A stretch of DNA of 35,637 nucleotides. Origin: Actinomycetota bacterium (GTDB taxonomy: Bacteria; Actinomycetota; CADDZG01; JAHWKV01; JAOPZY01). Below the pieces are notes generated by a model that was given only the letters and a program-made list of their open reading frames with translations, searched no databases and was not told where the DNA came from. Every line of letters starts with the position of its first letter. Position 1 is the stretch's first letter. Location of the stretch: contig JAOPZY010000188.1 of the NCBI GenBank assembly GCA_025963875.1, positions 1-35,637 of the forward strand, given 5' to 3'. This document shows, in pieces, positions 272 through 6,651 of this stretch. Position numbers and translations under genes: made by a program.

Positions 272-1063
272 TTAGCGGGCCGCGTTGTGGTCGTACCGCC
301 TGCGGGCCCACAGGTAGCCGAGGGCGGCGATGCCGGCGCACCAGGCGGCGGCAAGGACAGCGCTGCGACCGATCGGGGTGCCGGTGAGCAGGCCGCGCAA
401 CGTATTGATGACTGGGGTGAATGGCTGGTTCTGGGCGAACCAGCGCACACCGGCCGGCATGGAGCCGGTGGGCACGAATGCGCTGCTGACAAACGGCAAC
501 ACGATCATGATGAGCGATAGGCTGTTCGCCCCCTCGGGGGTCTTGGCCTTCAGCCCAAAGGCCACGGCCAGCCAGGTGAGGGCGAGGGTGATTCCGGCAA
601 ACATGCCGGCCGCGGCAACCCATTCGACAGGGGTGGCAGTCGGGCGGAAGCCAAGGGCGAACGCAACGCCGACCACCAGCACGCCGCTGATCATCGTGCG
701 GATGAAGCTTCCGATGACCTGGCCGGTCAGCACCGAGGCACGGGTGATGGCCATGGTACGGAACCGGGCGATGATGCCTTCGTTCATGTCGGTGCAGATG
801 CCCACCGCCGTGGCCGCGGCCCCGGCGCCGGCGGTCATCAGGATGATGCCGGGAGCGAGGTAGTCGATGTAGTGACCACCGACCGCGGAGGGGCCGGTAA
901 GGCCGGCCCGCAACGTGGTGCCGAACACGCCGACGAACAACAGCAGGAAGAAGATTGGCACCATCAAGCCGCTGATCGTCATCGCCGGGTACCGCAGGGA
1001 GTGGCGGACGTTGCGGCGCAACATCGTGGTGGAGTCGCGCAGGGTAAAGGCGAGCGTGCTCAT
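272..1063 (-). CDS. ABC-2 type (DrrB-like) transporter permease
   Basis: A 263-residue membrane subunit of a drug or lipid-type ABC exporter. It has a short cytoplasmic N-terminus followed by about six hydrophobic segments, starting near residues 28-48 (SGLMVPIFFLLLFVGVFG). The ABC-2 family loop with FRTMAITRASVLTGQVIG is near residues 95-112, and the typical FVPTGSMPAGVRWFAQNQP region lies before the last segments. It sits 24 bases after the ATPase gene with an AAAGGA ribosome site, so it is the last gene of the RHH-DUF4097-ATPase-permease operon. The substrate cannot be read from sequence. Confidence 0.9.
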   Translation of the reverse strand: MSTLAFTLRDSTTMLRRNVRHSLRYPAMTISGLMVPIFFLLLFVGVFGTTLRAGLTGPSAVGGHYIDYLAPGIILMTAGAGAAATAVGICTDMNEGIIARFRTMAITRASVLTGQVIGSFIRTMISGVLVVGVAFALGFRPTATPVEWVAAAGMFAGITLALTWLAVAFGLKAKTPEGANSLSLIMIVLPFVSSAFVPTGSMPAGVRWFAQNQPFTPVINTLRGLLTGTPIGRSAVLAAAWCAGIAALGYLWARRRYDHNAAR

Positions 1064-1087: not shown

Positions 1088-2035
1088 TTATGTGGAAGTG
1101 TTGGGATGGCCGGTCAGGGCGAGGAAGACGTCATCGAGGTCCGCGCTCTGCACCGTGACGCGCTCGACGCGGAGGGCGTGCTGGTCGAGCCGGTCGAGCA
1201 GGGCCACGAGCGACTGAGGGGTGCCGTCGGTCGGGACCTGCAGGACGAGCGTGTCGTTGTCGCGTGACGCATCACCGAGGAGCTCGGCGGCGGCATCCAG
1301 TCCGTTGAGGTCGTGGAAGGAGAGCCGGGCGTGACCACCGGGGATCAGCCGCTTCAGCTCGTCGGGTGTGCCCTCGGCAACCAGATGACCGTGGTCGAGG
1401 ACGGCGATGTGGTCGGCAAGCTCGTCGGCCTCCTCCAGGTTCTGCGTCGTCAGGAAGACGGTGACCCCGGCGCCGACGAGCTCCCGGATGATCTGCCACA
1501 TCGTGAGGCGGCTGCGGGGGTCCAGGCCGGTGGTGGGCTCGTCGAGGAAGATGATGCGTGGGTCGCCGATGAGGGTCATGGCGAGGTCCAGCCGGCGCCG
1601 CATCCCACCCGAATAGGTGGCGACCATCTGCCGCGTCGCATCGACGAGGTCGAACCGGTCGAGCAGCTCGCTGGTGCGGCGGCGACCAAGAGGGCGGTCC
1701 AGGTGGTGGAGATCCGCCATCAACATCAGGTTCTCCTCGCCGGTGAGCAGGTTGTCCACCGCCGAGAACTGGCCGGTGACACCGATTGCGGCGCGCACGG
1801 CGTCGGGTTCGCGGGCCAGATCGAAGCCGGCGATGTGAACTTCGCCGGCGTCAGCGTCGAGGAGGGTCGACAGGATCTGGACGGTGGTGGTCTTTCCGGC
1901 GCCGTTGGGCCCGAGGAGCGAGAAGGTCGTCCCTTCGGCGATGTCGAGGTCGATCCCATCGAGGACGGTCTTCTCCCCGAACGACTTGCGCAGGCCGGCG
2001 ACCTTTAACGCCGGCGGAGCTGTGATGGTGATCAT
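1088..2035 (-). CDS. ABC transporter ATP-binding protein, DrrA-like
   Basis: A 315-residue ATPase of the daunorubicin-resistance (DrrA) type that powers the adjacent ABC-2 permease. Visible motifs are Walker A GPNGAGKTTT (about residues 39-48), the signature YSGGMRRRLDLA, Walker B IIFLDEPTTGLDP, and the H-loop replaced by TTQNLEEAD, as is usual in DrrA relatives. A C-terminal extension of about 90 residues follows, also typical of DrrA. The start has an AAGGAGG ribosome site and lies 9 bases after the DUF4097 stop, implying translational coupling. Confidence 0.93.
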   Translation of the reverse strand: MITITAPPALKVAGLRKSFGEKTVLDGIDLDIAEGTTFSLLGPNGAGKTTTVQILSTLLDADAGEVHIAGFDLAREPDAVRAAIGVTGQFSAVDNLLTGEENLMLMADLHHLDRPLGRRRTSELLDRFDLVDATRQMVATYSGGMRRRLDLAMTLIGDPRIIFLDEPTTGLDPRSRLTMWQIIRELVGAGVTVFLTTQNLEEADELADHIAVLDHGHLVAEGTPDELKRLIPGGHARLSFHDLNGLDAAAELLGDASRDNDTLVLQVPTDGTPQSLVALLDRLDQHALRVERVTVQSADLDDVFLALTGHPNTST

Positions 2036-2044
2036 GGCCCCTCC

Positions 2045-2914
2045 TTACCGGGTCGTTCGGGCGGCGTGGACACGCCGGATCGTGATGTCGCCCATGGCGG
2101 TGCGGGCGCGTACTTCGACCGCGTCTTGCCCCGCTTCAGGATGGCCGGTGTCGTCGAGGTCGCTGTGCACCGTTCCGAAGCTGGTGTTGAGGTCCAGCCA
2201 GGCCGTGACGCCGTCGCGGATTCCGACCTCAATCTTGCCGAGGGCCGTTTCTGCGAGGACTGCACCTCGGGCCACCTCGCCGAGACGGATGTCGCCATTG
2301 GCGGTCTTCGCAGCCACTCCGGCCTCTGCCCGGTCGACAAAGATCTTGCCGTTGGCGGCGTGGACTCGAAGGTCGCCGGTGACCGCGCCGATTCTCGTGT
2401 CTCCGTTGGAGTTCTTGACCACCGCGGTGCCGTCGATGACGCCGATCCCGAGGGCGCCGGAACCCGTCGTGATCTCGGCGTTGCCAGCCGCCCGGTCAAT
2501 GGTGATGTCGCCGAATCCGGTCTTGAGGTCCACGCCCCCAGCCTGGTCAACATGGATCTCGCCGACGCCAGTCCTGAGGCGGCAGTCGCCCAGTCGACCG
2601 GTGCAGTGAAACGCCGCTACTCCCACTTCACCCCGCAGCTGTGAGCCCGCAGGCAGGTCGATCTGCACGACGATCGACTCGCGGCCACCACGAAATGTGT
2701 ACTGCCTCCACCCCTTTGGTGCCTTGATCAGCAGCCTGCCGTTGGCGTACTCCACGCGAGTCTGCTGGGCGGCGGCCACGTCGGCCTTCTTTGCGCTGTC
2801 GCTCGGGCGCACTTCGACGACGGTGTCCGAGCGGTCACTTGCCACGATCCAGATGTCGCCGACGCCCAGCTCCACAGTCACGGAAATGGGTTCGGGCGTG
2901 TCGAAACTAGGCAT
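2045..2914 (-). CDS. DUF4097-family beta-repeat protein
   Basis: A 289-residue protein. After a short N-terminal beta region it consists of roughly 19-20-residue repeats rich in the pattern G.G.I.(V/I)(D/R), for example GVGEIHVD, GFGDITID, ANGKIFVD, ANGDIRLG and AMGDITIR. This predicts a beta-solenoid or beta-helix of the DUF4097 (adhesin-like) group. I see no signal peptide or membrane segment, so a cytoplasmic location is likely. The start chosen (MPSFDTPEP) has an AAGGAG site 7-8 bases upstream; a longer frame runs to 3139 but its extra residues are proline- and arginine-rich and overlap the upstream gene. The molecular role is unknown. Its position between a regulator and an exporter suggests a role linked to that transporter. 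Confidence 0.85.
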   Translation of the reverse strand: MPSFDTPEPISVTVELGVGDIWIVASDRSDTVVEVRPSDSAKKADVAAAQQTRVEYANGRLLIKAPKGWRQYTFRGGRESIVVQIDLPAGSQLRGEVGVAAFHCTGRLGDCRLRTGVGEIHVDQAGGVDLKTGFGDITIDRAAGNAEITTGSGALGIGVIDGTAVVKNSNGDTRIGAVTGDLRVHAANGKIFVDRAEAGVAAKTANGDIRLGEVARGAVLAETALGKIEVGIRDGVTAWLDLNTSFGTVHSDLDDTGHPEAGQDAVEVRARTAMGDITIRRVHAARTTR

Positions 2915-2933
2915 CCCAGTCTCCTTCTCTCGG

Positions 2934-3452
2934 TTAGCGCGCCCAGCCGGTGTAGCGCTGGGTGCCTTGCGGTGAACGTTGTTTGCGCCTGCGGTCGGGG
3001 TCGGTTCGTTCCAGTGCAGCGCTGGCCGCTCGCACCAGCCAGCTGTTGACCGAAAGGCCTTCGCCGGCGGCGGCCTGTTCGATCCGAGCCTTGAGCTGAT
3101 CGGGCATGCGGAGGTTGATCCGCGACATTGCTCCCTCATCGCCCTCGACCGAGCCGGCCGGCTCCCGGGAGCCGGCGTCCTCGGGTTGGTCGTCGACGGA
3201 CAGATCGACGGGCGGTGGCGTCACGACGAACTCGGGGTCACGTCCGCGCAGGCGCAGTTCAACCGACCCCGGAGCAAGCTCGCAGGTGATCTCCTCCGCC
3301 GCCGCCGCCAGCACGTCCTGCAGCGTGAGACGGATCGCTGCGTCCAGTGGTGCCACGAGGCGCTCAGCCAGCGCACGAGCCTCCTCACCGCCGGCCTCGG
3401 CGGCTACCGCAAGCTGGGTTTGGATGTTGTCGATGTAATGTCGTAGGTCCAT
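2934..3452 (-). CDS. Ribbon-helix-helix (HicB/Arc-like) regulator with N-terminal extension
   Basis: A 172-residue protein. Residues 1-55 are helical and alanine-rich, residues 56-80 look like a short beta segment (CELAPGSVELRLRG), residues 81-108 form an acidic linker, and residues 109-148 are a ribbon-helix-helix DNA-binding domain (SRINLRMPDQLKARIEQAA...LSVNSWLVRAA). The tail is basic. Such proteins are often named HicB-family antitoxins, but there is no HicA-type toxin beside it, so it is more likely the autoregulator of the operon. I chose the MDLRHY start because the promoter at 3459-3487 places transcription at that ATG; an upstream ATG at 3482 lies inside the promoter palindrome. Confidence 0.85.
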   Translation of the reverse strand: MDLRHYIDNIQTQLAVAAEAGGEEARALAERLVAPLDAAIRLTLQDVLAAAAEEITCELAPGSVELRLRGRDPEFVVTPPPVDLSVDDQPEDAGSREPAGSVEGDEGAMSRINLRMPDQLKARIEQAAAGEGLSVNSWLVRAASAALERTDPDRRRKQRSPQGTQRYTGWAR

Positions 3453-3458
3453 GGCGCC

Positions 3459-3487
3459 ATGATGGCACCAGAGTGGTGCCATGTCAA
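3459..3487 (-). promoter_or_regulatory. Promoter with operator palindrome in the spacer, leaderless start
   Basis: Read on the minus strand, a perfect -35 TTGACA (3482-3487) is followed by a 17-base spacer and a -10 CATCAT (3459-3464), then six bases (GGCGCC) and the ATG of the RHH gene. Transcription would start at or next to the ATG, giving a leaderless mRNA. Bases 3462-3482 are a perfect palindrome with arms ATGGCACCA and TGGTGCCAT around three bases, covering the whole spacer and touching both boxes. Extra TGCCA half-sites lie at 3497-3501 and 3509-3513. This is the expected layout for autorepression by the RHH protein. Confidence 0.72.
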
Positions 3488-3592
3488 GAGGATGTGTGCC
3501 AATTGTGATGCCACGACCTGGTGGACGTTACGCCGGTACCTCCGGGATTTCGATGAGGCTCGGAAGAAATCCGTCGTATGCGCGGGATGATT

Positions 3593-3654: not shown

Positions 3655-5913
3655 TCAGTACTCGCGCTGGCGAATCCGTCGCGGTGGCGGCTGCTCGGCC
3701 CGGCGTCCTGGCGGAACCCCGTCGGGGCGCGGCGTGGTCGAAAGGGAAAGAGGAGCAGGAACCACGCTCCCTGCGAAGGCCGGCTCGGCCTCGATCCGCA
3801 GGGTCGGAATCATCCGGTCCAGCCACCGGGGCAGCCACCAGTTCGCCCGTCCCAGCAACTCCATCGTGGCCGGCACGAGCAGCATCCGCACCAGGGTGGC
3901 GTCGACGAGGACGGCGACCGCAAGGCCCAGGCCGATCATCTTGATGATCCGCTCGTCCCCGAGGACGAACGACAGGAACAGCGTGACCATGATCGCCGCT
4001 GCGGCCGTGATCACACGAGCCGTGGACGCCAGGCCCCCGGCGACTGCACTGCTGTTGCCGCCCGTTCGCTGGTACTCCTCCCGGATTCGTGACAGTAGGA
4101 AGACCTCGTAGTCCATCGACAGCCCGAATAGGATGGCGAACAGGATGATGGGGACGAAGGATTCGATGGGCCCCCCACGGTCGATGCCGGCAAGCGAGCC
4201 GAGCCAGCCCCACTGGAACACTGCCACGACGACGCCGTAGGCGGCGCCAATTGAGAGCAGGTTCATCACGACCGCCTTAAGGGGGACGAGGACGGACCGG
4301 AACACCGCCATGAGGAGCAGGAACGACAGCGCCAGGACCCCGGCGATGATGAACGGGAGCCGCACGCTGATGACCCTCGCCATGTCGTAGAAGAGGGGGG
4401 AGATGCCTGCCACATAGACCGTGGCCCCCGTGCCGTTCGTCGTCGACGGGATCACCGAAGCCCGCAGCGTCCGGATCAGCTCGTCGGTGCCCTTCGCCTG
4501 GGGTGCGAACGACGGGAAGACGGCGACGGCGGCCACATCGCCAGCAGCGTTCAACCGGGGAGGGGTGACGATCGCGACGCCGGGTACGCCCGCCAGCCGA
4601 GAAAGCAGCGGCGCGAGGACGCCGACCTGGCCGGGACCGGGCAATGAAGCGACCAGCAGCAGCGGCTCGTTGAACCCCGGCCCGAACCCTTGGGCGAGGA
4701 GGTCGTACGCCCGCCGGGGCGAAGTGGCCGTGGGGTTTGCCCCCGACCCCGCCCATCCCAGCCGGATCGACAGCAGCGGTGTCGCGAGGGCCCCCAGTAT
4801 CAGCAGCGCTGTAATGGCGACCAGCCACGGCCGGCGCTGCACGCCCCGGCTCCAGCGCTCCGCCGCCTTCGATTCCCGCCCACTCGCTCCCCGCCGCAGC
4901 CCAGGGAGACGGAGGCTGTCGATCTTCCTGCCGATGAACCCCAGCACGGCAGGCAGCAGTGTGACCGACGCCACGACCATGACGAGCACCGCGATCGACG
5001 GGCCGACGGCGAACCCGTAGATGAACGGCACGCCCGTGAGCAGCATCGCCATCAGCGCAACGACCACGGTGACGCCCGCCAGCACGACCGACCTGCCAGC
5101 GGTCCCCATCGCCCGTACCACCGCCTCCTCGACATCCATGTCCCGGGCGAGGCCCTCCCTGAAGCGCGTGACGATGAACAGGGCGTAGTCGATCCCGACG
5201 CCGAGGCCCACCATCGACGCCACCTGGGAGGAGAAGCTGTTGATGTCCATGACGTTGGCGACCAGCGCCAGCAGCGCAAATGAGACCCCGACGCCGCACC
5301 CGGCCGTGAGGAGCGGGAGCCCCATGGCGACGGCCGACCCGAAGGCGATCAGCAGGATCACCACGGCGGCCACCAGCCCGACTCCCTCCCGCTCCCCGGG
5401 TCCCTTCGTCTCGGCGAAGCGCACCGACTCCCCCCCGAGCGCAACCTGCACGCCGGGCAGGTGGACGGCGTCGACCTTGTCCCGGATCGCGAACATCACC
5501 GACTTGGGCACCTCGGTGGCCCGGGCGTTGAACTGGATGGTGGCATAGGCGATGTGCCCGTCCCTCGAGACGCCGGCCCCGCCCCCGCCGTAGGGGCTGA
5601 CGACCGTGACGACGTGGGGAAGACCGCCGACGTCAGCGAACAGCCGCTCCATCGGCGCCCGCACGGCGGGGTCGGTCGCGGCGCCGGACGAGCGGAAGGC
5701 GATGATGGCGGTGTCGCCGGCCAGCTCGGGGAAGCGGGCCCGCAGCACGTCGAACGCCCGCTGGGACTCGGTGTTGGGCAGCACCAGGTTGTTGCTCAGC
5801 GCCCCACCGCGTGTGGCGCCGAGCACGCCCACCCCGACGACGGCGACCAGCCACAGGCCGACGACGGCCCGCCGTCGCCGGTAACACCAACGCCCAACCG
5901 CTTCCAGTCCCAC
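3655..5913 (-). CDS. MMPL/RND-family membrane transporter
   Basis: A 752-residue RND-superfamily exporter of the MMPL type, which moves lipids or hydrophobic drugs using the proton gradient. It has the duplicated layout of one N-terminal transmembrane helix, a large extracytoplasmic domain, a helix bundle, a second extracytoplasmic domain and a second bundle. Both family signatures are visible: GLGVGIDYALFIVTRFREG in the first half and GLSMDYEVFLLSRIREEY in the second, with the buried Asp-Tyr pairs thought to carry protons. The chosen GTG (MGLEAVGRWCYRRRR) has an AGGGAGG site five bases upstream; a frame six codons longer begins at 5931 but would include that ribosome site. It is divergent from a TetR gene that probably represses it. 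Confidence 0.9.
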   Translation of the reverse strand: MGLEAVGRWCYRRRRAVVGLWLVAVVGVGVLGATRGGALSNNLVLPNTESQRAFDVLRARFPELAGDTAIIAFRSSGAATDPAVRAPMERLFADVGGLPHVVTVVSPYGGGGAGVSRDGHIAYATIQFNARATEVPKSVMFAIRDKVDAVHLPGVQVALGGESVRFAETKGPGEREGVGLVAAVVILLIAFGSAVAMGLPLLTAGCGVGVSFALLALVANVMDINSFSSQVASMVGLGVGIDYALFIVTRFREGLARDMDVEEAVVRAMGTAGRSVVLAGVTVVVALMAMLLTGVPFIYGFAVGPSIAVLVMVVASVTLLPAVLGFIGRKIDSLRLPGLRRGASGRESKAAERWSRGVQRRPWLVAITALLILGALATPLLSIRLGWAGSGANPTATSPRRAYDLLAQGFGPGFNEPLLLVASLPGPGQVGVLAPLLSRLAGVPGVAIVTPPRLNAAGDVAAVAVFPSFAPQAKGTDELIRTLRASVIPSTTNGTGATVYVAGISPLFYDMARVISVRLPFIIAGVLALSFLLLMAVFRSVLVPLKAVVMNLLSIGAAYGVVVAVFQWGWLGSLAGIDRGGPIESFVPIILFAILFGLSMDYEVFLLSRIREEYQRTGGNSSAVAGGLASTARVITAAAAIMVTLFLSFVLGDERIIKMIGLGLAVAVLVDATLVRMLLVPATMELLGRANWWLPRWLDRMIPTLRIEAEPAFAGSVVPAPLSLSTTPRPDGVPPGRRAEQPPPRRIRQREY

Positions 5914-5935
5914 TCCTGCCTCCCTCCGCACGATC

Positions 5936-5964
5936 GCAACGGTGGTTGCACTCGCTCCGGCGAG
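5936..5964. promoter_or_regulatory. Two adjacent dyads in the MMPL-TetR intergenic region
   Basis: GCAAC-GGTG-GTTGC (5936-5949) and CTCGC-TCCG-GCGAG (5951-5964) are two perfect five-base inverted repeats with four-base spacers, side by side in the 69-base gap between divergent starts. A TTGCAC at 5946-5951 may be a -35 box for the TetR gene. These are candidate TetR operators controlling both directions. Short dyads also occur by chance in GC-rich DNA. Confidence 0.4.
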
Positions 5965-5982
5965 GGGACAAACTAACGCATC

Positions 5983-6651
5983 GTGTCATCTCGTCGCCAA
6001 ACGGCAGCCCAAAGCAAAGCCGGGACCCAAGCCCAGGCCCCCGCTCAGACGCCGCTCCTCGGGGACCGCCTCCTCGACGCGGCGGCCACCGCCGTGGCTC
6101 TCCATGGCCCCGCCCGGACGACGATGGACGACGTCGCCCGGGCGGCCGGCTGCGCCCGCCAGAGCATCTACAAGCACTTCGCGACGAAGGACGAGCTCCT
6201 CACCGCCCTCTTCGCCCGGGAGGTGGAGCGCTACCTCCTGGCCCTCGAGCACATGCTCGCCGAGCGGGGCCGCCACGACGCCTCCGACCTCGAGGAGGCC
6301 TTCGTCTACACCCTCGGGTACCTCCGGGGTCACTCGCTCGTGGGGAGGATCCTCGCCGACCCCCAAGGCATGCTGTCGGTCCTCGCCCTCGGTGACGGCT
6401 CGGTGCTGGAGGCGGTTACCCGGGGCATCGGCCGGGTCCTCGGTGCCCTGGCGGACGACCGGGCGCTCCGAGCTGTCGACGGGGTCCTGGTCGGCGAGAT
6501 CTTCGTCCGGCTCATCGCGTCGTTCCTGCTGCTGCCACGGCTCGCCCTGGACCCGGAGGACGACGAAGCCGTGCGGGCACTCTTCAGAGAGTGCGTGGTC
6601 GAAGGGCTGAGAAGCCCCAGAGTTCGGGGATCGGCCAAGCGGAATGCTTAG
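5983..6651 (+). CDS. TetR/AcrR-family transcriptional regulator
   Basis: A 222-residue one-component repressor. The N-terminal 25 residues are a low-complexity Gln/Ala/Pro tail. The TetR helix-turn-helix follows at about residues 45-75 (RTTMDDVARAAGCARQSIYKHFATKDEL), then a helical ligand-binding domain. The start is a GTG without an evident ribosome site. It is divergent from the MMPL exporter with only 69 bases between starts, so regulation of that pump is the natural inference. The ligand is unknown. Confidence 0.88.
   Translation: MSSRRQTAAQSKAGTQAQAPAQTPLLGDRLLDAAATAVALHGPARTTMDDVARAAGCARQSIYKHFATKDELLTALFAREVERYLLALEHMLAERGRHDASDLEEAFVYTLGYLRGHSLVGRILADPQGMLSVLALGDGSVLEAVTRGIGRVLGALADDRALRAVDGVLVGEIFVRLIASFLLLPRLALDPEDDEAVRALFRECVVEGLRSPRVRGSAKRNA

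Follow-up and report, generated by a model that had tools for sequence, protein, structure and literature searches.

The dimer of a ribbon-helix-helix (RHH) protein presents a two-fold symmetric beta-ribbon, and in Arc of P22 position 11 is a beta-strand residue that faces the DNA. Arc places two dimers on an operator whose half-sites are about 11 bp apart and lie between the -35 and -10 elements. The DUF1778 antitoxins AtaR, KacA and TacA work together with an acetyltransferase toxin. In M. tuberculosis, the RHH antitoxin MazE6 binds upstream of its own gene to an operator of 18 bp that takes in the -10 box (PMC9477884), while AmrZ of Pseudomonas is an RHH repressor of its own gene with 5'-GGC half-sites (PMC3325190). 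An RHH-Toastrack-ABC operon of Actinobacteria was noted in 2024, in an account whose passages on it describe gene neighbourhoods without an operator or promoter layout (PMC11237479).

Here we analyzed such an operon in a 35,637-nucleotide stretch of DNA from an Actinomycetota bacterium (the window). Its first gene shares the RHH fold with Arc, and the variable beta-strand residue of the family aligns with Arc residue 11. In contrast to Arc with its two half-sites, three phased half-sites of the form TGGYRCCA are present, the third of them lying in the start codon; the protein has about 80 additional residues that form an N-terminal domain, its C-terminal tail is conserved, and the operon is chromosomal and spread over a phylum. 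MazE6 is likewise an actinobacterial RHH protein with an operator over its own -10, but belongs to a toxin-antitoxin pair and binds as one dimer per operator, with no three-site array. AmrZ differs in regulating several unrelated genes, in its Lys-Val-Arg contact set and in sites for which no phasing into a start codon is known. By profile and fold the closest solved relatives of the RHH domain are AtaR, KacA and TacA, yet no acetyltransferase toxin is encoded at the window operon. The gene set reported in 2024 (RHH factor, Toastrack/DUF4097 protein, ABC ATPase, permease) is like the one found here.

The RHH protein and its operon

The preliminary description of this DNA had assigned the first gene of the operon to the RHH class, and this was borne out by several methods. 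A Pfam TacA1/HicB match, barely above cut-off, begins at residue 111, and PDB profile matches were obtained to AtaR (E 2e-4) and Arc (E 0.04) as well as to KacA, AmrZ and Mnt. In the AF2 model (mean pLDDT 73), N-terminal helices and a beta-hairpin are followed by a linker, the RHH domain (residues ~111-150, near the C terminus) and a low-confidence tail; helices were placed at 118-130 and 135-150, and in the fold search the model matched the AtaR-DNA complex and Arc best. One strand followed by two helices was thus found by profiles, model and fold search. For the N-terminal domain the fold search gave no convincing PDB match. The tail ends in a TGWxR motif that, though modelled with low confidence, is conserved in most homologues (window 2937-2990) and may be a docking peptide.

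In the operon, the four genes (Table 1) are separated by gaps of, in order, 16, 9 and 24 bp. The starts of the three downstream genes are preceded by the Shine-Dalgarno-like sequences AAGGAG, AAGGAGG and AAGGA, in which the first gene differs from them. Among 65 loci with enough sequence, DUF4097 lies downstream of the RHH gene in 60 and both drrAB-type ABC genes are present in 53. The Toastrack (DUF4097) fold has been proposed, in the same 2024 account, to assemble sub-membrane signalling complexes (PMC11237479). A homologue of the window RHH protein was also recognized in Lun1 of the lunaemycin cluster (S. lunaelactis pSLUN1, L265 3501-4034), which is listed with unknown function. The lun1 gene has the same three-site operator in the leaderless layout and is followed by DUF4097, P450 and ferredoxin genes, the latter two in place of the ABC genes. 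The constant core therefore consists of operator, RHH gene and DUF4097, whereas the cargo varies.

This partnership bears on the reading of the RHH protein as the antitoxin in a toxin-antitoxin pair of HicB or TacA type, autoregulating as such pairs do. The Pfam family name points that way, and RefSeq names some homologues 'toxin-antitoxin system HicB family antitoxin' (L264 5001-5537; L266 5001-5519). A HicA or TacT toxin gene, however, adjoins neither the window gene nor those of the annotated relatives inspected; the partners in the operon are DUF4097 and ABC or P450/ferredoxin genes, with DUF4097 as the constant one. An antitoxin role is on these grounds extremely unlikely, and the HicB label, with no toxin gene near, is likely misleading.

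Upstream of the RHH operon, at 3655-6651, the window holds a gene for an MMPL-family transporter and a divergent one for a TetR-type regulator, probably a separate efflux pair.

Predicted promoter and operator in the window

On the minus strand the letters bear out the arrangement claimed in the preliminary description, with a -35 element, a 17-bp spacer (3481-3465), a -10 element and the ATG in succession; six bases separate CATCAT from the ATG of the RHH gene. Given these positions, a typical transcription start point would fall on the first base of the ATG. As a -10 element CATCAT is non-canonical, with C in the first position. An ORF start called by the program at 3482 was rejected, as homologues begin at 3452 and the extension to 3482 is unconserved.

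Table 1. Features of the RHH operon and its promoter region in the window. Positions relative to the start codon are given in brackets.
Feature	Position	Strand	Basis
RHH autorepressor candidate, 172 aa	2934..3452	-	Pfam, PDB profiles, AF2 model, fold search
DUF4097 (Toastrack) protein	2045..2917	-	Pfam PF13349, E 4e-12
DrrA-type ABC exporter ATPase	1088..2035	-	TIGR01188, E 5.4e-96, above cut-off
ABC-2 permease (DrrB-like)	272..1063	-	Pfam PF01061
-35 element TTGACA	3482..3487	-	Sequence letters; TTG at -36/-35 in 148/158 in-register relatives
-10 element CATCAT	3459..3464	-	4/6 match to TATAAT; family form CANNNT
ATG of RHH gene and predicted transcription start	3450..3452	-	Homologue alignment, fixed register; start point inferred
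Operator half-site 1, TGGCACCA	3474..3481 (-29..-22)	-	Letters; conserved columns in 95 relatives
Operator half-site 2, TGGTGCCA	3463..3470 (-18..-11)	-	Letters; conserved columns in 95 relatives
Operator half-site 3, TGGCGCCA	3452..3459 (-7..+1)	-	Letters; conserved columns; register count
Possible accessory half-site TGGCACAC	3494..3501 (-49..-42)	-	Weak conservation at about -51..-44 in relatives
Possible accessory half-site TGGCATCA	3506..3513 (-61..-54)	-	Letters only

A perfect palindrome with nine-base arms had been described in the spacer, together with two half-sites further upstream, and all of these are present (the latter at 3513-3506 and 3501-3494). The palindrome, ATGGCACCA-CTC-TGGTGCCAT at 3482-3462 on the minus strand, fills the spacer and extends by one base into the -35 and by three bases into the -10 element. 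It is the single exact palindrome with 9-base arms and a 3-base gap in the window, compared to 0.43 in a base-shuffled window, equivalent to about 0.0015 in every 120 bp. Allowing up to two mismatches, TGGCACCANNNTGGTGCCA has a single occurrence in the window, where 0.03 would be expected, and its exact form occurs once in the 3.84-Mb genome.

The view of the operator as one palindrome with stray copies had nevertheless to be replaced by one of three half-sites with an 11-bp period, the third of which covers the start codon. This third half-site, absent from the preliminary description, is TGGCGCCA, and its last base is the A of the ATG. The full layout, TGGCACCA-CTC-TGGTGCCA-TCA-TGGCGCCA-TG, reads as three 8-bp units in 11-bp steps, and the short half-sites about one helical turn apart that mark operators of the RHH class are found here in this form. 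The -10 hexamer comprises the final two bases of half-site 2, the 3 bp that follow and the T with which half-site 3 opens. At the position of the outermost accessory site, TGGCATCA, no conservation was detected in the stacked upstreams of 95 relatives.

Conservation across Actinomycetota

Homologues were collected from relatives, from the GTDB genome collection (80 loci) and from genomes of the phylum (396) and of the class (395). The upstream sequences of 95 high-scoring homologues were stacked gap-free at the start codon, and no indels were found between -36 and the ATG. Conserved columns comprised the TTG of the -35 element and the three half-sites, with a column information of up to 2.5 bits compared to 0.07 at -100..-75. 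The exact register (at least 19 of 24 matches) was present in 158 of 206 Actinomycetota loci, while shuffled upstreams reached it in 2 of 20,600 cases. The last 83 loci were added once the three-site pattern had been settled; 73 of them had 20 or more of the 24 matches, whereas 60 shuffled 450-bp upstreams gave 18 at best. In a reverse scan of the 396 genomes with the three-site pattern (at most two mismatches), matches were found in 30 genomes, compared to one match with the reversed control. In 24 of these 30 genomes the match lay within ~400 bp of the RHH gene, an overlap of two tables that was counted by eye.

The conserved unit is the 8-bp near-palindrome TGRYRYCA (TG-R-YR-Y-CA), present in three copies beginning at -29, -18 and -7. 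Its centre is a pyrimidine-purine step, with CG, TG or CA in 532 of 558 units. As the conserved unit the long palindrome was rejected: 12 loci have exact 9-bp arms, the first two half-sites are reverse complements of each other in 29 of 186, and the long palindrome in the window is incidental. Examining homologous RHH-DUF4097 operons for the palindrome had been proposed as a check. The outcome is favourable in substance, with the operator found in one constant position ahead of the RHH gene throughout the phylum, but the long palindrome itself is unconserved.

The fixed register also extends to the start codon. Among the 158 in-register loci the gene begins with ATG in 157, Shine-Dalgarno-like bases occur in 3, and the -10 element is located at -12..-7 relative to the start codon in the form CANNNT, with A at -11 in all 158 and T at -7 in 157. 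The fixed zero-length leader, the use of ATG and the lack of Shine-Dalgarno sequences support a predicted leaderless start. It could be argued that transcription begins further upstream and that half-sites 2 and 3 belong to a 5' untranslated region, as CATCAT is a weak -10 element and the program-called ORF reaches 3482. Such a leader is very improbable in view of the constant distance of the -10 and -35 elements from the ATG over 158 loci, the start-codon and Shine-Dalgarno counts and the unconserved extension to 3482; in addition, leaderless mRNAs are common in the phylum, accounting for 21% in S. coelicolor (PMC4895711) and 26% in M. tuberculosis (PMC3898074). In some distant relatives the operator lies 80-300 bp 5' of the called start, and the leaderless layout is therefore not universal. 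For distant homologues of the Thr/Ser type described below (L024, L029, L030, L132, L133, L135, L137, L140) this distance is 130-300 bp; these genes are either not leaderless in the layout of the window, or their start was miscalled.

Residue-operator covariation and proposed regulation

The beta-strand of the window RHH protein reads R-x-N-x-R, in which R111 and R115 are invariant among homologues and, like them, the outer TG and CA of the operator unit are nearly invariant. The residue between the two arginines, Asn in the window, aligns with Asn11 of Arc in the PDB profile match. Where this residue is Asn, the units are mostly TGG..CCA, and where it is Ser or Thr, TGA..TCA predominates; positions 3 and 6 of the half-sites are A or T at a mean fraction of 0.18 for Asn (n=107), 0.68 for Ser (n=22) and 0.79 for Thr (n=52). 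Of the rare Ala forms, two carry TGATATCA. A first test of covariation on 113 loci provided too few independent pairs, and more loci were therefore fetched. On an IQ-TREE tree built with the beta-strand masked, independent Asn versus Ser/Thr pairs differed as predicted in 8 of 8 cases (sign p 0.008), and on a FastTree tree in 7 of 7. Only a single pair is located on strongly supported branches and most lie on low-support, weak deep branches, so that the direction is firm and the phylogenetic p-values are approximate. The beta-strand residue that sets specificity in the RHH class is thus represented here, on comparative grounds, by the covariation of the Arc-11 equivalent with bases 3 and 6.

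This covariation is the strongest evidence that the RHH protein, and no other, would read the operator. TetR proteins also bind palindromes and one is encoded about 2.5 kb away (5983-6651), which raises the idea that the operator is real but read by another regulator of this kind. The operator, however, accompanies the RHH gene throughout the phylum and covaries with its beta-strand residue, and the tetR-type gene adjoins the MMPL gene, its likely target. Reading of the operator by another regulator is consequently very unlikely.

On the basis of sequence comparison, it is highly likely that the RHH protein is an Arc-like autorepressor of which up to three dimers bind and block the leaderless promoter of its own operon, comprising the RHH, DUF4097, DrrA-type ATPase and ABC permease genes. 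The earlier interpretation of an autorepressed exporter operon is thereby supported and made more exact. Each dimer would read one 8-bp near-palindromic half-site TGRYRYCA, and three dimers would line up along one face of the DNA, as Arc places two, in one-turn steps of 11 bp from just inside the -35 element to the start codon. A need for phased spacing has likewise been described for RelB (PMC2812701). The -10 element takes bases from half-sites 2 and 3, and the predicted start point coincides with the final base of half-site 3; binding of the repressor and of RNA polymerase should therefore be mutually exclusive, and with a leaderless mRNA the operator would sit over the point where transcription and translation begin. 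The conserved C that opens the -10 element may reflect a constraint to preserve the CA of half-site 2. As this module recurs ahead of the RHH gene in well over a hundred actinobacterial relatives, the start of this drug-exporter-type operon is very probably a 32-base self-shutting switch. The RHH protein might instead bind the operator and mainly activate, or act as a dual regulator, as AmrZ both activates and represses (PMC3325190) and extra half-sites lie upstream of the -35 element. We regard this as quite improbable, given that the conserved sites overlap the -35, the -10 and the start, an arrangement suited to steric repression.

For induction of the proposed autorepressor, the co-conserved partner DUF4097 would be the first candidate for the signal, and it is a reasonable idea that it binds the predicted N-terminal domain or the TGWxR tail. 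More tentatively, RHH and DUF4097 might form a self-contained sensor-repressor pair, in which the Toastrack protein or a substrate of the exporter binds the N-terminal domain or TGWxR tail and releases the RHH protein from the three-dimer operator that is merged with promoter and start codon, while the operator class would be switched across the phylum by a single beta-strand residue (Asn or Ser/Thr); this possibility is a doubtful one.

RHH autorepression and leaderless genes are both familiar. Apparently undescribed in the open-licence literature searched are the fusion of a three-site operator with promoter and start codon, the constancy of its register over the phylum and the correlation between residue and site; no published account of the operator of this RHH operon was found there. 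Promoter, operator, predicted transcription start and start codon are merged in about 32 bp whose register is held over the phylum. A concrete and testable regulator and operator can thus be named for an exporter operon that is widespread in actinobacteria and whose first gene, Lun1 included, carries the database label of an orphan HicB antitoxin or a hypothetical protein, and the homologues offer a natural series of matched repressor-operator pairs for studying the DNA specificity of one RHH beta-strand residue.

In the window's own genome the three-site pattern matches the operator of the 3482 region only. A two-mismatch copy of the two-site operator, TGCCACCACCCTAGTGCCA, is located on contig C106 (L002 1501-1519) between two apparent genes and could be a second target or due to chance. 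Near-perfect three-site operators with no detected RHH gene of the family adjacent were observed at G330:C1:2189218-2189249 (L154) and G175:C43:3028-3059 (L152); possibly they are further targets or the sites of other regulators.
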